Shown here piece after piece: positions 1,062 to 11,906 of a DNA stretch of 25,437 nucleotides; within the stretch, counting starts at the first letter, position 1, and each line of letters starts with the position of its first letter. Origin of the DNA: a virus; IMG/VR virus record IMGVR_UViG_3300040958_000002, positions 1-25,437 of that record; one strand, 5' to 3'. Made by a program: the position numbers and the translations under genes. A model generated the notes under the pieces. That model did not search any database. It was not told the DNA's origin and was given only the letters and a program-made list of their open reading frames with translations.

Positions 1062-3923
1062 TTACGGGGTGCCGCGCAGCGCAACCGCGGTAGGCCTGAT
1101 GGCCGTCAACAACGCTTGCGATCCACCCGCGACAGCTTGTCCCGGGCTGGTAGGGGAAACGGAAAGGCTTGAACCGAAAGTAATGGCAGCACTGTCTGCG
1201 CGACGGATATCTGAGATCGGGAGGTATCCACGGGCCTTAACGCGACCGACTTTCGAGGGATAGATATCTTCCCACGCAACGCCCGCGAATATTGAGGGAT
1301 CGTCCGACGATGTCATCAGCCTTACATGCGTCCGGTTCGTGTCCCATGCCAGAAGCGATCCCATCGGGATGCCATAAGTTTGTCCGTTGGTAAGGGACAG
1401 CTCCTCATCTGTGAAGCGGGGACGGTAACGCTCTCCGACTGCATAAAGCGATGCCACGGCAATGCCGCCCAAGGCAGTATTGATCTGAGCAAGAAGATCA
1501 GCATTGCTGACGGCGGTATGGTTTGCGTTGAACGTCACCGTTCGCGTTTCAGCGCCAACAGTCACGCTTAGGCTGACAGGCGTGCTGGAGCGATTTCCCA
1601 ATCGCCTTCCCAAGCTGGTGATGGCCAAGTTGGCAGCGGGTCCAACCAGCTGTTCCGAAACATCAGCTGAACCGTGAACATAGCTCGCTAGATTAGTTGC
1701 ACCGGGATAGGAGCGCACTTGGCCCATCAAGATTGCAACAGCAGGCCCACTTACGCTCACGGGTGCCAACGAACCATCTGGCGCCGCAATTTTAAGCGCA
1801 CGACCAAAGTCGGTAATGCGGAACACCGCAGGGCTGTTTCCCTTCCCAGAGACCTTTATCTCGGAATGATCAGCAAGCTGCTTGTTTAGTTCAGAGGGAA
1901 ACCACCCGGTTACTGCATAGGAAATGTCACCGACAATCACGCAATCTTCAATGATGTGCTGATCACGCTGACCAGAGCCCAAAGGAAGAATGCGCAGAGC
2001 CGTTCCGTTGACCCCGCTACCACTTGACTGCGTTAATGCAACAAAGGTATCGCGCTCATTCCTGACAACGCAGGGCTTTGCGAAGTCCACGTTGTTGTGC
2101 CAAGCAAACGTCATGACTGGCGCAATGTACACGCTGTCCTTGCTCGTTACATGCCACCCGCTTGATGTTCCCATGCCAAGCGCATCTTGCGAGGCCCAGC
2201 TCCCAATCACGTTCCCAAGATGCTCCAGACGGCAATCTGAAATCTCGATAACTGCGTCAGGATTAGCCCCATTCGCTTCGATGTGAACCGCATAGCGTCC
2301 ATTTCGGACGCTGACATCCAGCCCGCGCAGACTTGCCGTATCAGTGACAAAGAACGGTTGGTGGCTAGCAGGATTTAGCGCCGATCCATCGGGCAACTCA
2401 TAGTGAATGCGAGGCCGAACAGCACTAGAGGCGCCCATTTCAACGTACTTTGGAAGTGTCCAGTTAAACTCGCTCGTGTACTCACCGGGCAAAACCCGCC
2501 ACCTTACCGGCGTGACCGGTGAGGCTCCTGCACTTGCTACAATCGCAGCTGCAAAAGTAAGTCCGCCCGTACCAACATCCAGATCTGTCGCGACTGGAGG
2601 TCTGGTCACTGCTGCGACAATGTCGCTGCGGTTCCTGGCCATCGCGTGCTGCAAAGTTGCTGTGGTGTCGCTCTCTCCGAACCGAGAAACCATAGCTTCA
2701 AGTGACTTGGCGATAAAATTTCTGGCCACGCTCGTATCGCCGCCGGCAGCAAGCTGGATGCAGGGACCAAGCATATACTCGTCGCCCTGCACAACATAAT
2801 CGGAGACCACTGTCAGGACTGTACCGTCCTGCACCATGCGACGCGCGGCCGTTCGATTGATCCCAGGCCCGTTCGGCGTTGTTCGGACATTGAAAACTAC
2901 CGGCCCGAGAGGCTGCCGCGACATAAATTCTGCCGAAACATCGTATTTTGCAGTAACGCGCAGCCGATCACCCGCCTGAAGACCAGCCGCCGAGAAAAGC
3001 CTGATGACATAGGAACTAGCGCCCGTTTGGCCGACAGGTGTATTGATCCCAATTCCAGCGCCGCGCTCATCATTGACCCGGGTCGCCCCATTCAAAGCTT
3101 GTGCCGATCCAACTGTGGGGTGTTCTGCATAAGGCAGCAGACCAGTATTAACGAACTGGAAACGGCTTTGGACGGATGCCTCGTCACCTCGGTCCGACAG
3201 GATCGTGTATTCGATCGACGACACTACTGCCTCTTGTACGCTGGACATGACAGCATTCGCGGACGCAACCTGTAGGGTCAACCCGGCTTGGGTCGCATTA
3301 CCTGGAATAGTTGCAATGCCGGAGATTTCCAGCATATCACCACGCTGTACGGCAGCCGGAGCCGACACCTCCAGAGGTGTGTATCCCGACCCCGTCGAAT
3401 ATTGAGCGCGTACGGGGCCGAGCGTCACAGATGCCAGAAACCCAGCAGAGGCTTTGAAGCGTGTACGGAAAAATATGGTCTGCCCGCGCATGGCTTCCAT
3501 ATTCATTACCAGCGATAGATAGGTCTGTGCCCCGGTCTGACCCGCAGGGATACGGATCCCCATCACGGTGGTTCCCGTCCCTGCCACGAGACTGGCACCG
3601 TTGAGAGCCTGCCCGATTGCGAGGTGCTGTCCGAACATGTCTCCCATGCTCAAGCTGGACAATACAGGCTTGAGCGCGCTCAATTCTGAGGCTTCAGCCT
3701 TATCATCGAGTTGAGCCAGAATGTTTGCCAGCGCCTCAGGATCCCCCTGCGTCTGCAGGATGGCGATCAGCAGCTCGCGGATCTCGAACTTGTCGAAGTT
3801 GTACATGCCGGAGCGTGGATCGCCACCGGGCAAGGGCGCCCCCACCGGCGCGTTCGGCTGCCCGTCGCCGGTGAAGCGGACGTGATCGCGGAACACCCGC
3901 AGGATATCGGTGACTGTGGGCAT
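1062..3923 (-). CDS. Tailspike/tail fibre protein with beta-helix-like region
   Basis: This 953-residue protein is probably the receptor-binding spike at the tail tip. The ATG at 3923 has GAGG 6 bases upstream; an in-frame extension to 4031 would run back through a terminator and into the preceding gene, so it is rejected. Residues about 1-100 form an adhesin-type N-terminus with a likely coiled coil (about 60-85). Two related modules follow (about 106-240 and 276-410), sharing ALNGA, GQTGA and LGPV motifs in the same order. Residues about 450-720 have short beta-rich turns like a right-handed beta-helix of the pectin-lyase type, often seen in polysaccharide-degrading spikes. Residues about 840-953 form a Gly/Ser/Thr-rich C-terminal domain. 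Base composition is visibly less GC-rich than its neighbours, suggesting separate acquisition. Catalytic residues cannot be assigned by eye, so enzyme activity is inference. Confidence 0.75.
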   Translation of the reverse strand: MPTVTDILRVFRDHVRFTGDGQPNAPVGAPLPGGDPRSGMYNFDKFEIRELLIAILQTQGDPEALANILAQLDDKAEASELSALKPVLSSLSMGDMFGQHLAIGQALNGASLVAGTGTTVMGIRIPAGQTGAQTYLSLVMNMEAMRGQTIFFRTRFKASAGFLASVTLGPVRAQYSTGSGYTPLEVSAPAAVQRGDMLEISGIATIPGNATQAGLTLQVASANAVMSSVQEAVVSSIEYTILSDRGDEASVQSRFQFVNTGLLPYAEHPTVGSAQALNGATRVNDERGAGIGINTPVGQTGASSYVIRLFSAAGLQAGDRLRVTAKYDVSAEFMSRQPLGPVVFNVRTTPNGPGINRTAARRMVQDGTVLTVVSDYVVQGDEYMLGPCIQLAAGGDTSVARNFIAKSLEAMVSRFGESDTTATLQHAMARNRSDIVAAVTRPPVATDLDVGTGGLTFAAAIVASAGASPVTPVRWRVLPGEYTSEFNWTLPKYVEMGASSAVRPRIHYELPDGSALNPASHQPFFVTDTASLRGLDVSVRNGRYAVHIEANGANPDAVIEISDCRLEHLGNVIGSWASQDALGMGTSSGWHVTSKDSVYIAPVMTFAWHNNVDFAKPCVVRNERDTFVALTQSSGSGVNGTALRILPLGSGQRDQHIIEDCVIVGDISYAVTGWFPSELNKQLADHSEIKVSGKGNSPAVFRITDFGRALKIAAPDGSLAPVSVSGPAVAILMGQVRSYPGATNLASYVHGSADVSEQLVGPAANLAITSLGRRLGNRSSTPVSLSVTVGAETRTVTFNANHTAVSNADLLAQINTALGGIAVASLYAVGERYRPRFTDEELSLTNGQTYGIPMGSLLAWDTNRTHVRLMTSSDDPSIFAGVAWEDIYPSKVGRVKARGYLPISDIRRADSAAITFGSSLSVSPTSPGQAVAGGSQALLTAIRPTAVALRGTP

Positions 3924-3939
3924 GCTTGACCTCAAATGC

Positions 3940-3961
3940 AAAAAGCCCGCGCAGGGCGGGC
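3940..3961 (-). terminator. Intrinsic terminator between tail-tip and tailspike genes
   Basis: On the minus strand a perfect 6-base stem (3956-3961 with 3945-3950) with a 5-base loop is followed by five Ts (3944-3940). It lies 26 bases after the stop of the tail-tip gene and just upstream of the tailspike ribosome site. It would lower spike transcription relative to the tail operon or be overcome by antitermination. Confidence 0.8.
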
Positions 3962-3987
3962 GGTCGTGAACGGATGGATGGGTGGCG

Positions 3988-6021
3988 TCAGAAGGTGGCG
4001 GAGATCGGCCCGATGGGATCGGACGGCACACCGGAGCGGTTCAAGGTGCGGACCCAGAAGCGGCGGGTGCCGGTGATCCCGGTCATGTCGTGAGTGTAGT
4101 TGTCCGGGCGGCCCGCGCTGCCCGCGACCGTGGCGATAATGGTCGCCGCGGCGACGTCGGTGGTGGCGCCCATCAACACCTGGGTGCGGAAATAGCCGGA
4201 GGGGGCGTTGATCCAGTCGATATAGGCGGTGTCCCCGGTCGCTACGACGCCGAGGCTGGAGGGCGCCGGCGGCGTTGTGGGGTTCGACAGCACCGTGACT
4301 GGCCCGGCCTTTTGCCACGTCCCATACCCGCGCCACATGTAGCGGACGGTGTACGGCTGGCCATCGTCCAGGACATCGCTTTGCGCACGCAGCTGGGCCG
4401 CTGTCATCTCATCCCACTGCGGCTGCGTTCCGCTCCAGGGGCCGACAGGGGCAAAGTCACCGCGCGCGATCTGTGCGCGCAGACGTAGCCCGTCGCGGTC
4501 CGGATCATCAACCGACAGCGACAGCTTCACACCCTGCACGTCGCCGGAGATCGACACCCGTTCCTGGACCAGCACCGCACCGGTCGGGACCGGGTCGGCC
4601 TCGTCCACCGTGCCGATCTGGGCCAGCGTCGGCGGCAGGGGCTGTTCCTCGGAAGGGGCGTGCCAGGCATAGGGGTTCACGATGCTGGCGATGCCGATCT
4701 CGCAGGTGGCGCGCGCGATGTCGAAGCTGTGGCTGGTAACCTCGAAGATGCCGTCCAGGCCGAACTCCTCGGAGATCACCCGGATGGTATGGATTCCATT
4801 ACCCTTCGGAAAGCGGGCCTTCAGCCCCACCAGGTTGGTGCGCAGCGTGCCGACATGCTCGCGGCGGTCCTTGGCCCGCTTGATCTTCATGAGCCGCTGC
4901 AGCTGCGTCCCGGAGGGGCACATGTCCACGTCCAGCATGTCGGTGCGGCGCGGCTGCGTGGCCAGCGCCGCCTCGTCGACCAGCTCGGCCACCTGCGTCG
5001 GCTGGTAGCCGTGATCGGGGCTGACGAAGCTGCCCTGCAGGACGTTGTAGTCGGTGAACGGATCGAAGCCGTCCGACATCTGGATCGACAGGATGTCCCG
5101 GTCGGTGATGGTGACGTCAGGGTCCGACCATGCCCCGCCGAGAATGCCGACCGTGCCGTCGGCGGTCTCGTAGATCTGCCCGTCGCAGGTGGCCAGCATC
5201 CGGGCGGTCACGTCCTTCAGCGGATCCTCGAGCGTGTAGTAGCCGCAGAGCCGATAGCGTTGTTCGGTGCTGCCATCGGCGCGCGGCACGGCCTCGCCGC
5301 AGAGCGCCGAGAAGGAGGCCCAGGAGGCCGTGTCGAGGCGCGCGAGCGGGATGCCCCAGCCCTCGGGATGGGTCATCAGATCGCGGATGCAAAGCCCTGC
5401 GGTCTCGGTATAGACCAGATCGCCCGCCATGTTGCGCACCCGCACGCCGCGGATCTCCGCCTGCACCTGCGTCTGCGATTGCTTGGGGAAGATCTTGCCG
5501 AAGTCCTCGTTCGAAGGATCGCCCCAGACCGACATGAACGTTGCCTGGCCCTGCAGACGATGGGCTGCGGTCCAGATTTCCGGAAAGGCCAGGCGGGCAG
5601 GCTCGTAATCCCCGCCCTGACCGGAGCCGTCGCGGAAGAACAGGTACTTGTAACGCTGGACCTCGCCCGTGTCCGCGTTCCAGCCGACCGGTTCGCCATC
5701 GATCCAGAAGCGCAGCAGCCCGTCGACCCGACCGTGGTGGATCACCACGACCTGGTACAGACGACCGTCGCGGGCCTGGAACAGCGCGCGCACCCCGCCC
5801 ATCAGGTTGCGGCCATAGGCGCGGCGGCGGGCGGCCTCGGTCTGGTTCAGCGTCGCCATCATCTCCTGACGGGACGCTGCAGGGCGGGAGAGTGCCATCG
5901 AGGCCAGCGACCAGGTGACTGCCTGGCCAGCCGCGATGATCGCGCTGGCCGCGGTCGTGCCAAGCGCAGTAGTGACGGACGCCCAGAAGGCCGTGGTGGC
6001 CAGGTACGTAAAGACGGCCAT
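3988..6021 (-). CDS. Tail tip/host specificity protein (gpJ-like)
   Basis: This 677-residue protein starts at an ATG directly abutting the TGA of the GNAT-like gene. The N-terminus is hydrophobic (about residues 1-48), as in tail-tip proteins that interact with the tape measure or the host envelope. The middle (about 70-450) is a beta-rich region like the hub domains of lambda J-type and gene transfer agent tip proteins. The C-terminus (about 475-677) has two beta-sandwich-like segments, the last resembling a fibronectin type III module. It follows the two minor tail proteins and precedes the tailspike, the normal place of the central tip protein that closes the tail and carries host-binding elements. 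It is shorter than lambda J (over 1100 residues), but many related tip proteins have this size. Role is assigned from order and domain character; the exact family was not verified. Confidence 0.8.
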   Translation of the reverse strand: MAVFTYLATTAFWASVTTALGTTAASAIIAAGQAVTWSLASMALSRPAASRQEMMATLNQTEAARRRAYGRNLMGGVRALFQARDGRLYQVVVIHHGRVDGLLRFWIDGEPVGWNADTGEVQRYKYLFFRDGSGQGGDYEPARLAFPEIWTAAHRLQGQATFMSVWGDPSNEDFGKIFPKQSQTQVQAEIRGVRVRNMAGDLVYTETAGLCIRDLMTHPEGWGIPLARLDTASWASFSALCGEAVPRADGSTEQRYRLCGYYTLEDPLKDVTARMLATCDGQIYETADGTVGILGGAWSDPDVTITDRDILSIQMSDGFDPFTDYNVLQGSFVSPDHGYQPTQVAELVDEAALATQPRRTDMLDVDMCPSGTQLQRLMKIKRAKDRREHVGTLRTNLVGLKARFPKGNGIHTIRVISEEFGLDGIFEVTSHSFDIARATCEIGIASIVNPYAWHAPSEEQPLPPTLAQIGTVDEADPVPTGAVLVQERVSISGDVQGVKLSLSVDDPDRDGLRLRAQIARGDFAPVGPWSGTQPQWDEMTAAQLRAQSDVLDDGQPYTVRYMWRGYGTWQKAGPVTVLSNPTTPPAPSSLGVVATGDTAYIDWINAPSGYFRTQVLMGATTDVAAATIIATVAGSAGRPDNYTHDMTGITGTRRFWVRTLNRSGVPSDPIGPISATF

Positions 6022-6411
6022 TCACTTCACCCATGCGCGTTCGGCCAGCCTGTAGCCGAGCCGTGTCAGATCCAGCCCCGTGGGGCCTGTCGAAAGTTGC
6101 GTCAGCAGCGCGCCGCGGTCCTGCGCCCAGGCCTCGAAGGCGCGCAGCAGGCGCAGACCGCTGCCATCGCGGGCCCACCAGCCATGCTCCATGGCGATCA
6201 GCGCCGGGCTGATGACCGTGGGCTGCAGCGATCCGGCGATGAACCCACCGCCCGACACCCAGACAGCCGCGTCCGGGCTGGTGATCAGCTTTGCGAGGAT
6301 GCCGGCCGTCCAGGACCGGTCCACCGGCACAGGACCGCCCACTGCGGCGCGCAGCTCCTCGATCATGTCCACGATCGGGAGGATGTCGTTTGCGCCCGCC
6401 AGTCGGATCAT
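6022..6411 (-). CDS. GNAT-like acetyltransferase encoded among tail genes
   Basis: This 129-residue protein begins with the MIRxAxxxDIxxI pattern typical of GNAT N-acetyltransferases. A central strand region follows, then a GSGLRLLRAFEAWA segment (about residues 84-97) that matches the acetyl-CoA-binding loop and helix of GNAT motif A. The C-terminal tail is a short 'GYRLAERAW' stretch. It is slightly shorter than standard GNAT proteins (about 140-160). The ATG overlaps the preceding stop as ATGA, and the stop directly abuts the next ATG, so it is fully embedded in the tail operon. In many alphaproteobacterial phages and gene transfer agents this interval holds an NlpC/P60 peptidase; here a GNAT-like gene fills it. 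Whether it modifies a tail protein, a host target, or is a catalytically dead structural protein cannot be told from sequence. Confidence 0.75.
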   Translation of the reverse strand: MIRLAGANDILPIVDMIEELRAAVGGPVPVDRSWTAGILAKLITSPDAAVWVSGGGFIAGSLQPTVISPALIAMEHGWWARDGSGLRLLRAFEAWAQDRGALLTQLSTGPTGLDLTRLGYRLAERAWVK

Positions 6412-7028: not shown

Positions 7029-7699
7029 CAGAGAGACTCCATGAACGTGATCTGCGCCCGTGGCACGTAGGCCATGGACTGGTCGATCACACCGTCATCC
7101 TCTGCGCGCATCCGCATGAGGCAGACCGGACGCTCGATCTCCAGACGCGCGCCCGCCGGGGCAGCTGCCCGCAGCGGCGGCTCGATCATCACCCGATGGG
7201 TGGCGCCATTGGGCCGCCAATGCAGCTGGACCCGATGCAGCCGCGGGCCGATCGAGAAGAACTGCCCGGGCCGCAGGCCTGTCGTGTCGTTCAGCGTCAG
7301 GTCCAGTTCCGTCGCCCGCAGCGCCGCGGCCGAGGCCAGCGAAACCCGAGTTACTGTCGTGTTTTCGACGCCGAAGTGCCCGAAGGTCTGGGCGCCCGCA
7401 AAGCCACCCGTTTTCACGAACGGGAGGTCCAAGCCGTTCCTGTCCTTTGGCCGGTACCGGGATCGGCACGGCACCAGCGTGGTGCCGATCCGGCCCTGCA
7501 TCTGGGCAAGGAACGCCTGCCATTGGAGGGTCGCAGCCTCGCCCTTCATCGCGAAGTCTGCGACCCCGATCCAGCGCCCCCGCATCGTCGGAACGATCGT
7601 CTCGGTGCCGTTGATGCTTTCCTCCGGCTCCAGCGACTGACCAGCAAGATGGAACCGCACCTCTTGAAAGAGGGCGAGATGGGGGAAGGTGGCCTGCAT
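7028..7699 (-). CDS. Minor tail protein following the tape measure
   Basis: This 223-residue protein starts at an ATG overlapping the tape measure stop (TAATG). Its first 30 residues are hydrophobic/aromatic, then beta-rich sequence continues to the end. It is the first gene after the tape measure. Distal tail proteins such as RcGTA gp12 and lambda M occupy this place, contacting the tape measure C-terminus and starting tip assembly. I do not recognise a specific domain, so assignment as distal tail protein is by gene order. Codon use and GC content match its neighbours. Confidence 0.65.
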   Translation of the reverse strand: MQATFPHLALFQEVRFHLAGQSLEPEESINGTETIVPTMRGRWIGVADFAMKGEAATLQWQAFLAQMQGRIGTTLVPCRSRYRPKDRNGLDLPFVKTGGFAGAQTFGHFGVENTTVTRVSLASAAALRATELDLTLNDTTGLRPGQFFSIGPRLHRVQLHWRPNGATHRVMIEPPLRAAAPAGARLEIERPVCLMRMRAEDDGVIDQSMAYVPRAQITFMESL

Positions 7700-10533
7700 T
7701 ATCCGTCTCGCTTCTGATGGTCCTGCATGACCGAGGGCACACGTTCCAGCCAGGCTTCACCGGCACGCTGGAGCTTCGCATCCAGTTCGCGATCCCCGGT
7801 GGTGCCGCGCAGATCGATGGTGGCGTGGTAGCTCGTAGAACGACCGCCGCCCCGGTAGGCATCCTTGGCCTCGCCGGTGCTCAGGATGCGGCCTGCCACA
7901 GCCGGAATGAACGGCTCGGGGCCGCGCTCTCCGGTCATGTAGGCGTGCCCCGCCATGACGGGACCACCGTTCGCGCGCGCCGGCAGCCCGATCCCCTTGA
8001 GCACACCCGTGAGGGCATCACCGCCGGGGGTCAGCAGGTTGCCAATGACGTTCTGCGCCACGCCCATGCCCGGCATGCCCATGATCGCGTTCATCGCCTG
8101 AACCTTGGCAATCTCGGCGATCAGCTGCAGGACGGCGTCCTTTGCGCTGGCGCTGCCGGTGATCACGCTACCAAAGAGGTTCTCCAGCGCCTGTTTTCCG
8201 TTTTGAGAAACCTGCGCCAGCCGCTCCTTCGCCGCCTTCAGGGCATCGATCTCAGGGATGAGCCGCTGCACCTCGGCGACCTGCGCCGCAGTGGCGCCTG
8301 CGCCAAGCGACTGGACGGCCTGATACACCCGCTCCTCCTCGGCGGTCATGCCGATGGTGGCAGAGAGGTCGGTGTACTCCTGGCGCAGAGACTTCAGGCT
8401 GTCGCGCGCAGCCTCTGCCGCCTTCTGCGCATCGGTCAGCTTTGACGCAGCCTTGCTAGCACCGCCGCCCGCGCCAGAGCCTGTCTCGATGTCCGGAACA
8501 TCGAACTCCGGCAAGGTCAGGTCGATGGAAAGGCCAAGGTTCTCCGGGTGTGAGCCCATGCGATCCGAGGTGGCGGACGATGTCACTGCCCGCGTAACCC
8601 GGTCCCGTGCAGAATAGGCCTCGTTCAGCCGCTCATTGGCAGCGTCGAGGCGTGCCTGCGCTTCGTTCAGTTCGCGCAGGGCAGCCTGTGACCGATTGTC
8701 CGCAAGCGCCTCGCCAGCAGGGCCTCTGGGCGCACCACTTAGCTGCTCCTCATAGGCGGAGGTCAGCATGGCACGGCGCTTCTCCAGTTCGGCGCGCGCG
8801 GCGTCCCTGGCGCTGTGAGCCAGCTTGTAATTGTCGTTCGCCAAGTCGATCGCGGCCTTGCCGGCAGACGGTGCAGCGGTGGCGTAGAAGGTGCCCAGAG
8901 CAGCATTCAGCGCCGCTGTGGCTTTCTCCGCTTCCTGCATGGCTCCGTCGGCCGTTGCAGCGTTGTCCCCGAACACAAGCCACGCTGCCGCACCGGCGCC
9001 GATCAGGCCCCAGACCAGACCGAGAGGTCCGCCCAGTGCGATCGTGGCCGCCCGTGCGATGTTTGCGGCTGCGGTGAACGTACCCAAAGCCAACGTGGCG
9101 GCGCCGCCTCCGGCCACGAAGGTGTACATCGAGGCCGTCAGCGCAGGCACTTGCGTGAAAGCCAAAGCGGTGACCACCACGCCCGCGCCCTGGAAGGCGA
9201 ACTTCGCAGCGTCGATGGCGGGTGTCAGGTTGCCAGAAAGCCAGCGCGTCAGGTCCGTTGCGCCTTGAATGCTGGAGCGCATCGCGCCGGTCAGCCCCGC
9301 CTCTCCGAGGCCAATAACCAGACCGGAGATAGCCGAACCCAGTCCTTGCAGGTCGCCGCCAAGGTTGTCCCGCATGGTGTCGGCCATGCGCTGTGCTTCG
9401 CCCTCGACGGTGTTCAGTTCGTCGCCGAACTCGCGGACGCGGGCAGCCCCATCGACCAGGACCAGCGCGCCCGATGCTGCCTCGCGCCCGAAGATCGTCA
9501 TGGCCTGCGAAGCGGTCATCCCGGAGCCGCGCAGCTTGTCGAGGATGTCGGCCAGATCGTTGGTGGCCGGATCGACGTCGCGGATGGTCAGGCCCATCTG
9601 CTTGAGCGTGTCGGCAGCGGCCTTGGTCGGACCTGCGAGCGAGGCCAGCATGCCGCGCATTGCGGTACCAGCGCGCTCGCCCTGGATGCCGGCATCGGAC
9701 ATGACGCCGATGGCCGCCGCAGTGTCTTCCAAGCTGATGCCTAGCGTGGCTGAGATTGGCGCCACGGTGCTCATGGCCTGCCCGAGCTGCGACACGTCGG
9801 TGTTGGCCCGGCTGGAAGCCGCTGCCAGCACGTCGGCCACGTCGCCGGCGTTCTCGGCCGCGATCCCGAAGCCGCTCATAATGTTGGAGCTGATGTCGGC
9901 CGCGCTGGCCAGATCCATCTGCGCCGCCGTGGCGAGGTTCAGCACGTCCGGAATTGCTGCAATGGCATCGCGGGCGCTGAAGCCTGCCATGCCCAGGAAC
10001 TTGAGGCCGTCCGCCGCCTGCGCCGCACTGAACTCGGTGGTGTCGCCGAGGTCCTTGGCAACATCGCGCAGCGCTTCGAGCTCGGCCCCGGTGGCCCGAG
10101 TCACGGCTGCGACGGCGCTCATCGAGGTGTCGAACGTGGCAATCTCGCGGGTGACCGCACCGATGCCGAAAGCTGCTGCTGCCATGGGCAGAAGATAGGA
10201 AGACAGAGCCGAAGCTGCCCCAGCCATGGTGGTCATCGCAGCACTGGCCCGCACCGCGGCCACGCCCTGAGCATCGATGCCCTTGGCCGCTGCCGCCGCC
10301 GCTGCCGCGGCCTCAGTACCGGCCTTGATGTATCGGCCGTTAGCATCTCTAAACCGGCCAACCGGAGCGGCGGCTTTGTTTGCGGCAGTGCCCATCCCGA
10401 GGATCGCGGCGCCTGTCTTATCGGTCTGAGCCTCGGTCATGGCGCCAGCATCGGCGACAGCTTTCAGATCAGTGACTGCCGTCTTGAGCTGTCTGGTGTC
10501 GGCCGACAGGACCAGGGTGGCGAAATCAACCAT
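7699..10533 (-). CDS. Tail tape measure protein (TP901 type)
   Basis: This 944-residue protein sets tail length and is carried inside the tail tube. The N-terminus is helical with an Ala-rich run near residues 74-84. Residues about 135-340 match the TP901 tape measure core: a short FDTSM segment followed by repeated Ala/Gly/Ser-rich helices. Hydrophobic stretches lie near 440-530, and a long charged coiled-coil region at about 560-690 and 700-800. The C-terminus has the common ARANGGPVMAGHAYMTGERG signature of tape measure proteins. At roughly 1.5 angstrom per residue this would give a tail near 140 nm. The ATG at 10533 overlaps the end of the T frame by 8 bases and has an AGGAGG-type ribosome site. 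It follows the tail chaperone, as in nearly all siphophages. Confidence 0.93.
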   Translation of the reverse strand: MVDFATLVLSADTRQLKTAVTDLKAVADAGAMTEAQTDKTGAAILGMGTAANKAAAPVGRFRDANGRYIKAGTEAAAAAAAAAKGIDAQGVAAVRASAAMTTMAGAASALSSYLLPMAAAAFGIGAVTREIATFDTSMSAVAAVTRATGAELEALRDVAKDLGDTTEFSAAQAADGLKFLGMAGFSARDAIAAIPDVLNLATAAQMDLASAADISSNIMSGFGIAAENAGDVADVLAAASSRANTDVSQLGQAMSTVAPISATLGISLEDTAAAIGVMSDAGIQGERAGTAMRGMLASLAGPTKAAADTLKQMGLTIRDVDPATNDLADILDKLRGSGMTASQAMTIFGREAASGALVLVDGAARVREFGDELNTVEGEAQRMADTMRDNLGGDLQGLGSAISGLVIGLGEAGLTGAMRSSIQGATDLTRWLSGNLTPAIDAAKFAFQGAGVVVTALAFTQVPALTASMYTFVAGGGAATLALGTFTAAANIARAATIALGGPLGLVWGLIGAGAAAWLVFGDNAATADGAMQEAEKATAALNAALGTFYATAAPSAGKAAIDLANDNYKLAHSARDAARAELEKRRAMLTSAYEEQLSGAPRGPAGEALADNRSQAALRELNEAQARLDAANERLNEAYSARDRVTRAVTSSATSDRMGSHPENLGLSIDLTLPEFDVPDIETGSGAGGGASKAASKLTDAQKAAEAARDSLKSLRQEYTDLSATIGMTAEEERVYQAVQSLGAGATAAQVAEVQRLIPEIDALKAAKERLAQVSQNGKQALENLFGSVITGSASAKDAVLQLIAEIAKVQAMNAIMGMPGMGVAQNVIGNLLTPGGDALTGVLKGIGLPARANGGPVMAGHAYMTGERGPEPFIPAVAGRILSTGEAKDAYRGGGRSTSYHATIDLRGTTGDRELDAKLQRAGEAWLERVPSVMQDHQKRDG

Positions 10534-11349
10534 CGTCAGGCTCCTCCTGGTCGACTGGCGCGATGGCGAACGGGCTTTCTCCGTCCCGCATTGCGCTGCA
10601 ATAGCCCCGGCACATCTCGGCCAGGATCTCGGTGTCTTCGGCGTCGAGCATCTGATTGCCCGCGAAGGCCACCAGCACAGGCCAGTCCGTTGCGACCATG
10701 CCTTCGCCGATCGCGCGCAGCGGACCGACCCTGAACATCATGTCGTGGAGATATTCCCCGGCCATGAGATCAGGCAGCTCGAGGAACTCAGGGGCGATCA
10801 TCGCGGACCGTGGCTCGGATGACCCCTTAGGCTTTGCCGCGAGCCATCCGACCTGGCGTGCCCAGAGGATCAGCCCTGCGCGGCGTCCGGCAAAAAACGG
10901 TCCTGCTCTCCCGCTGCCTCGGCGATCTGGACGGCGAAGGGCCGGTTGACCATCACCCACTTCTCGCCGGTCTGCATCACGTGGGCACGGTCAGCCTTCT
11001 GCATGATCGGGAAGGTCAGGTCGAGCAGCCAGCGGACATCCTCCGCCGAGCCGGTCAGGGGCTCGCCGTTCCGCTCGACGTTGATGAAGCCGACCACCAG
11101 CGACAGCGCGGATTCGATCAGGTCGGCATGCACCTCTTCCATCACGTCCAGCTTCGGCTGCGTGACCTTGGCACGGGCCAGCGCGCGCTTGCGCATGTCG
11201 GCCTGCACCGTCCGGGATGCCACGCCGCGCACGATCACGCAGGCGGGGCCATCGTCCCCCTCGATCGGCTCGCCGGTGATCGGGTCCACCAGCGGAACCT
11301 TGACGCCTTCCTCGGCCGGGCCGCGGTTGTCGAATTTGCTGAAATCCAT
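10526..11349 (-). CDS. Tail assembly chaperone, frameshifted G-T fusion
   Basis: Known siphophages make two tail chaperones from overlapping frames, G and a -1 frameshifted GT. Here the T frame (stop 10526-10528) has no convincing start of its own near its beginning and overlaps the 3' end of G in exactly the -1 frame. Slippage at T_TTT_TTG (10897-10891) would join G residues 1-153 to 121 residues of T, giving about 274 residues. The T part is helical with charged and aromatic residues. It ends 8 bases inside the tape measure gene, matching lambda G/GT and its position before H. GT recruits tail tube subunits to the tape measure in lambda; the same role is inferred here. Downstream internal ATGs in the T frame could allow a separate product. 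Confidence 0.75.
10870..11349 (-). CDS. Tail assembly chaperone G
   Basis: This is the 159-residue in-frame product, located between tail tube and tape measure. The ATG at 11349 has AGGA 6 bases upstream. The N-terminus (about 1-45) is a beta-rich segment with PITGEP and the rest is mainly helical, as in gpG-like chaperones. Termination at 10870 occurs only 6 codons after the slippery heptamer. G and GT together hold the tape measure in an assembly-ready state in known phages and are absent from the virion. Assignment rests on gene order, size and the frameshift arrangement rather than clear sequence similarity. Confidence 0.8.
   Translation of the reverse strand: MDFSKFDNRGPAEEGVKVPLVDPITGEPIEGDDGPACVIVRGVASRTVQADMRKRALARAKVTQPKLDVMEEVHADLIESALSLVVGFINVERNGEPLTGSAEDVRWLLDLTFPIMQKADRAHVMQTGEKWVMVNRPFAVQIAEAAGEQDRFLPDAAQG
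10891..10897 (-). promoter_or_regulatory. -1 ribosomal frameshift site (T_TTT_TTG) with upstream SD-like element
   Basis: In the G frame the codons are CGT TTT TTG, so the heptamer T TTT TTG fits X_XXY_YYZ exactly. A GGGAG sequence (10912-10908) lies 10 bases upstream, the spacing of the frameshift-stimulating Shine-Dalgarno element known from E. coli dnaX. The downstream T frame is in the required -1 phase. Confidence 0.8.
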
Positions 11350-11432: not shown

Positions 11433-11906
11433 TTACGGCGCGGACGGTGCTTCCACGGTCGGCGCGTTTTGCTTGAAGTTCGCGGTGAAGCCCTTGTGGG
11501 CCGACACGTTGCCCTGGTTCTCCAGATAGCTGTGTGCGTAGCCCTGGGCGTACTTCACGGGCGTGGTGGTATCGCCTGCCTTGGGCGTGATCCGGATCGA
11601 GATATCACCACCGGCGCCCTCGGCGGCCGTCTTGACGATCAGCTGACCAGGATCACGCACAGCCGTGCCCAGATCGCGGAATGCCATCTGGCTGTCGTTG
11701 CCAGTGCCGGCGCCTTTGACGCCCGCGGTGAAGCCGCTCTCCAGATCCTCGACGTCGGTGTTGGCGTGGCTGACGCCCAACTGCGGCAGCTGCTGAACGC
11801 CTGCGGCCTTGGTCCAGTCCAGCGCGGCGAAGCCTGCGGCGGTATTGGTCTCAGGAAGCCCGGCGAAGACATGGATCGTCTCGCCGATATAATTCTTGGT
11901 GGCCAT
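11433..11906 (-). CDS. Major tail tube protein
   Basis: This 157-residue protein is likely the tail tube subunit that polymerises around the tape measure. It lies between the tail terminator candidate and the G/GT chaperones, the standard place. The sequence is beta-rich with Gly/Ala-rich turns, has a 'GVSHANTDVEDLESGFTAG' segment (about residues 43-61) like other small tail tube proteins, and no Cys. It begins at ATG 11906 with only a weak ribosome site (AAAGGG, long spacing). It is flanked by non-coding gaps of about 110 and 80 bases, unlike the tightly packed genes around it, suggesting separate control of this abundant product. A small hairpin (11416-11429) follows the stop. The specific Pfam family is uncertain. 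Confidence 0.85.
   Translation of the reverse strand: MATKNYIGETIHVFAGLPETNTAAGFAALDWTKAAGVQQLPQLGVSHANTDVEDLESGFTAGVKGAGTGNDSQMAFRDLGTAVRDPGQLIVKTAAEGAGGDISIRITPKAGDTTTPVKYAQGYAHSYLENQGNVSAHKGFTANFKQNAPTVEAPSAP

Follow-up and report, generated by a model that had tools for sequence, protein, structure and literature searches.

The minus strand of the analysed DNA, a window of 25,437 nt (64.5% GC) from the virus record IMGVR_UViG_3300040958_000002, contains two overlapping open reading frames, G and T, between the genes for a major tail protein and a tape measure protein. The question raised by this locus is whether G and T are translated as separate proteins or joined by a programmed -1 frameshift, and which sequence elements would direct such a shift. 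Profile searches with Pfam and PHROG place both frames within an operon of siphovirus-like head and tail genes on this strand. It includes genes for terminase, portal, head, connector, tail terminator, the major tail protein, G, T and the tape measure protein, as well as distal tail and fibre genes. Locally, the tail terminator and then the major tail protein gene precede G, and the tape measure gene follows T; the overlapping frames thus occupy the position that characterizes the lambda-type G/GT pair. The two genes that flank the pair are:

11433-11906, minus strand: major tail protein gene, upstream of G (PHROG 158, E 1.8e-6)
7699-10533, minus strand: tape measure protein gene, downstream of T (PhageMin_Tail, E 5e-49; PHROG 1533, E 1e-86)

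Elsewhere in the run of tail genes, a small ORF (6022-6411, minus strand) gave a weak acetyltransferase match (PHROG 1249, E 8e-5), and a 989-codon ORF beside the tail fibre gene (1062-4031, minus strand) has no PHROG match at E 0.001.

The elements of the overlap are the following:

10870-11349, minus strand: G ORF, the predicted short form of the tail assembly chaperone, 159 aa, based on the open frame, homologues and a fold match
10891-10897, minus strand: T_TTT_TTG, a predicted slippery heptamer read in frame by G, with six codons left before the G stop, based on the sequence and homologues
10526-10894, minus strand: T region in the -1 frame, from the slip site to the stop, 122 aa including the slip-site Phe; the C-terminal part of the predicted GT

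From the heptamer onwards, the G frame reads CGT TTT TTG CCG GAC GCC GCG CAG GGC TGA and ends at the stop codon 10872-10870, with the TTG of the heptamer encoding Leu153. The -1 frame is open from 10990 to 10526, where it terminates (stop codon 10528-10526), and past Leu153 it continues as A-G-R-R-A-G-L-I-L-W. An earlier, sequence-only reading of this DNA had reported an in-frame T_TTT_TTG 6 codons before the G stop, an open T frame in -1 phase and a fusion of about 274 residues. On re-reading the sequence, all of its coordinates and counts were correct: the heptamer lies at 10897-10891 of the minus strand, T is open down to its stop, and the predicted GT fusion amounts to 153 + 121 = 274 aa. 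The T6 run of the heptamer is the only T6 or A6 run on either strand of the window. The probability that Arg-Phe-Leu is spelled CGT TTT TTG is about 0.0017 given the codon usage of the window, and shuffling of the codons of G brought a heptamer into its last 13 codons in 0.4% of the trials.

A search with G of the window alone, run directly against viral and genome contigs, found no relatives, and their retrieval from the contigs required alignments of four distant members as the query. G matches a protein of Paracoccus phage Pkon1 (L001) with 32% identity, and further relatives of G were found in plasmid-borne prophage-like elements of Sulfitobacter and Thioclava. The search with the T alignment yielded 40 viral contigs and two bacterial genomes, and phages of Salicola, Vibrio and Pasteurella were added to the set (loci L001-L057). 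The nearest relative, L004, was reached via the major tail protein and is 47% identical to the window in both G and T. For each homologue, the stop-to-stop frame of T was determined, followed by which of the other frames holds the longer upstream ORF, a procedure that allows for a +1 outcome.

In every one of the 40 distinct homologous loci, the T frame is -1 with respect to G, and 32 of these loci contain a perfect in-frame X_XXY_YYZ heptamer within the G/T overlap. Among 18 representatives sharing less than 70% T identity, 16 carry such a heptamer within the final 13 codons of G, compared with an expectation of 0.54 by codon shuffling and 2.98 by synonymous shuffling (tail probabilities of 3e-25 and 5e-15, respectively). 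In a 17th representative, Pkon1, the aligned position is occupied by GGGAAAG, 29 codons ahead of a stop that comes later; counting it gives 17/18. The type of heptamer varies between lineages while its position remains constant: TTTTTTG is found in the window, L004, L013 and L014; TTTTTTC in L007 and L048; GGGAAAC in L045, L019, L011, L006, L054, L055, L012 and L053; GGGAAAG in L001; and AAATTTT in L003 and the L016 group. The occurrence of different heptamers at one position implies that the ability to shift has been maintained rather than a particular sequence.

The perfect heptamer is not universal, because four loci have G_AAT_TTT and four others have only T_TTT. The G_AAT_TTT loci (L021, L037, L040 and L041) are close relatives of the AAATTTT-bearing contigs of the L016 group; the change is a natural one-base variant of a slippery site that could show how much re-pairing in the P site matters. 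The T_TTT loci are Vibrio phages (L049-L052) with the tetramer (ACT/GCT TTT A..) near the G stop (locus position 2514-2516), and this group keeps T in the -1 frame despite the loss of the perfect heptamer. Tetramers can shift in E. coli but require a strong stimulator (PMC4066793). Homologues that lack the heptamer and give T its own start, which according to the sequence-only reading would refute the frameshift, were looked for; apart from this one distant Vibrio group, which approaches that description weakly, the homologues do not show this combination. In at least two of its four phages, the annotators start T at a TTG inside a conserved helix. A gene for an HNH endonuclease adjoins G/T in two of the loci, just upstream of G in a Sulfitobacter plasmid (L054, 1953-2477) and separating T from the tape measure gene in Vibrio phage F89 g1 (L049, 3475-4167).

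The recurrence of the -1 arrangement bears on two explanations that dispense with ribosomal slippage. The frame break could stem from misassembly of the metagenome contig, or from an indel error in it, that splits what is really one ORF. Errors typically arise at homopolymers, and no tool result obtained here points to one. The same -1 architecture is present in isolates (Pkon1, Salicola CGphi29 and the Vibrio phages) and in bacterial genomes, which refutes an indel error for the homologue family and leaves it with next to no credibility for the window. The second explanation, slippage of RNA polymerase on the T6 run as the event that joins the frames, has the homopolymer in its favor and is very improbable nonetheless: T6 is short compared with the runs of about 9 in known bacterial cases (PMC5009743), and homologues have GGGAAAC or AAATTTT, which are not homopolymers, at the same place. 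Transcriptional slippage was rejected on the basis of these non-homopolymeric heptamers.

The sequence-only reading had also held that T lacks a good start of its own. That part stands insofar as the only upstream start in the T frame has no well-spaced Shine-Dalgarno (SD) sequence, and it needs correction in that this start, a GTG, does exist. The relevant elements are:

10844-10861, minus strand: A-R-Q-V-G-W (AxQxGW), a motif conserved in T, shortly after the G stop and upstream of any downstream T start
10958-10960, minus strand: GTG, the only upstream start in the T frame, 21 codons before the slip site; probably unused

The GTG at 10960-10958 has no properly spaced SD, its counterpart is missing in most homologues, and initiation there would add 21 residues that show no conservation. 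ATG 10801-10799, the next start in the T frame, falls beyond the conserved motif. Of 39 pairs with a recognizable motif, 26 lack any ATG, GTG or TTG in the stretch from the T-frame stop to AxQxGW; the window belongs to the minority that has one. According to the homologue alignments, conservation of the G frame ends at the slip site, and conservation of the T frame begins there, with L-x-L-[WY]-A-x-Q-x-G-W. In the predicted structure of T (AlphaFold2, pLDDT 91.6), an 18-residue helix begins at the slip site and carries the motif.

These features weigh against T being a separate protein that is translated from GTG 10960 or ATG 10801 by translational coupling, with no frameshift. Both codons are present in the T frame and the annotators of Vibrio phages assigned T a start of its own. 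A start before the conserved motif is missing in most homologues, initiation at the ATG would delete the predicted motif helix, initiation at the GTG would add the non-conserved residues, and the recurrent heptamer would be left unexplained. We consider separate translation of T unlikely to a high degree, if somewhat less so than slippage of the polymerase. In the public annotation of Pkon1 (L001, 5001-5806), G and T are separate hypothetical proteins with T truncated at TTG 5588; the overlap has the GGGAAAG of lambda in frame despite this two-protein annotation.

The identity of the pair as a tail chaperone was upheld by profiles of the homologues, by the position in the genome and by predicted folds. 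PHROG 313, 'Tail assembly chaperone', is matched by 7 of the 15 aligned G homologues (best 3e-9), and Pfam Phage_TAC_18 by 11 of the 15 aligned T homologues (best 1.3e-6). G of the window has no match in the Pfam and PHROG scans, and T of the window falls below the Phage_TAC_18 threshold, its sole profile match being PHROG 18915 (E 0.0015). The naming of the family rests on the homologues, since both proteins of the window miss the thresholds of the chaperone profiles. The model of G (pLDDT 86.7) matches the predicted structure of the tape-measure chaperone of Caulobacter phage Sansa (E 1e-6) and other named tail chaperones in BFVD. The G model is also matched by several entries of fusion length, including the 268-residue chaperone of Seurat; their match to the T model is weaker. 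Searches of solved structures by sequence and by fold gave no meaningful match.

The sequence-only reading had further described a dnaX-like stimulator upstream of the heptamer. The element concerned is:

10908-10912, minus strand: GGGAG, SD-like, a putative stimulator at a distance of 10 nt upstream from the heptamer, not conserved among homologues

Its geometry was confirmed, with the ten bases AGCAGGACCG separating GGGAG (10912-10908) from TTTTTTG (10897-10891). As a functional stimulator of the dnaX type, GGGAG would pair with the anti-SD of the 16S rRNA, pause the ribosome and place it under tension, and raise the share of GT. The element satisfies the published, experimentally based rule for stimulatory SD sequences (GAGG, GGAG, AGGA and similar, 6-17 nt before the motif; PMC4066793), and its anti-SD duplex energy of -7.4 kcal/mol is close to the -7.3 of a dnaX-like control. 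At the same spacing, the closest relative, L004, has AGGGA, whose purines also encode a conserved Gly, so that codon constraint explains them equally well. A duplex as strong occurs in 10% of codon shuffles of G (P = 0.10), and a motif that qualifies under the published rule is expected in G by chance with P = 0.31. Among the homologues, 5 of 17 G/T members satisfy the rule against 3.4 expected, and duplex energies are likewise not enriched (Fisher P 0.33); an SD as a conserved element is therefore unsupported. The comparison of homologous phages that had been proposed for both elements thus bears out the heptamer (16/18 representatives) and not GGGAG.

The downstream RNA (56-80 nt) is not significantly structured in the window (fold z = -1.3 to -1.8), and the value for L004 is -0.1, which leaves a downstream structure unsupported as a stimulator. 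With a chance-level occurrence in G, no conservation and a heptamer that is not that of dnaX, the case for a dnaX-like stimulator is weak. GGGAG may act in the phage of the window, but it lies outside what the homologues conserve, and we regard a stimulatory function as possible and rather doubtful.

E. coli dnaX shares with the window a homopolymeric heptamer and an SD-like element 10 nt upstream. It differs in that its heptamer is A_AAA_AAG, the window having a T-run that is not a dnaX-type slippery site; a clear stem-loop is missing in the window, the SD is not conserved among the homologues, and the shift gives the long product in the window and the short one in dnaX. The resemblance to lambda G/GT (PMC5009743) extends to the position before the tape measure gene, the overlapping ORFs, a -1 shift near the end of G and an X_XXY_YYZ motif, and the GGGAAAG of lambda itself occurs at the aligned position in the homologue Pkon1. 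The window has T_TTT_TTG instead of G_GGA_AAG, and profile searches gave its proteins no sequence similarity to named lambda families. The predicted folds of both halves match the fusion protein of Escherichia phage Seurat (KM236243), and the predicted fold of G matches that of Sansa (KT001913). Both chaperones are annotated with ribosomal slippage in GenBank and have in-frame heptamers, TTTTTTC at the very end of G in Seurat and GGGAAAA in Sansa. Sequence identity to the window is low (11-23% in fold alignments), and the stop of Seurat directly follows the heptamer, whereas that of the window comes six codons later. No report of TTTTTTG in tail chaperones was found in the openly accessible literature; phage tail frameshifts are said to have been surveyed by Xu et al. 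(as cited in PMC10885494).

We hold with high confidence that the locus encodes a lambda-type tail assembly chaperone pair, G and GT, produced by a -1 frameshift at T_TTT_TTG. Judged from the sequence and its relatives, one gene very probably gives the phage two forms of the tail-assembly chaperone. Most ribosomes would read G to its stop and release the 159-aa G protein. At T_TTT_TTG, a minority would slip back by one base, with the tRNAs paired to TTT and TTG re-pairing with TTT and TTT, and would continue in the T frame to yield a GT fusion of 274 aa. If the proteins act as in lambda, the tape measure protein would be coated by G and by the G portion of GT, the T portion would recruit the major tail protein, and neither G nor GT would be retained in the virion. 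The heptamer would be the main signal, to which GGGAG may add slightly in rate without being a conserved requirement. We infer that slippage occurs and at what rate, and, as in lambda, that GT bridges the tape measure and tail tube proteins.

Lambda-type chaperones need only a few percent frameshifting. Neither U_UUU_UUG nor G_GGA_AAC ranks among the heptamers of highest efficiency in E. coli, whereas a eukaryotic system uses U_UUU_UUG efficiently (PMC4066793); in the phage studied here the rate could be low, because U_UUU_UUG is absent from the E. coli list of the most efficient motifs. Since the G:GT ratio of lambda is near 30:1 (PMC5009743), we infer that such a gene would need a weak motif with no strong stimulators. 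It is possible, and we propose it tentatively, that this family has retained its frameshift with no conserved stimulators and has exchanged one heptamer type for another (T-run, GGGAAA and AAATTT) in the course of evolution, and that the ratio is set by a deliberately weak motif together with the tRNAs of the host.

Lambda-type G/GT frameshifting is widely conserved (PMC5009743), and the present case appears ordinary in kind. Sequence comparison makes it a well-supported new instance in a chaperone family that is mostly annotated without a frameshift. In public records, the relatives are mostly labelled as two unrelated hypothetical proteins, with the consequence that annotations of the T half are often incorrect or cut short. 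The natural heptamers found at one fixed position across the family offer a ready test of interchangeable slippery motifs in bacteria beyond E. coli.
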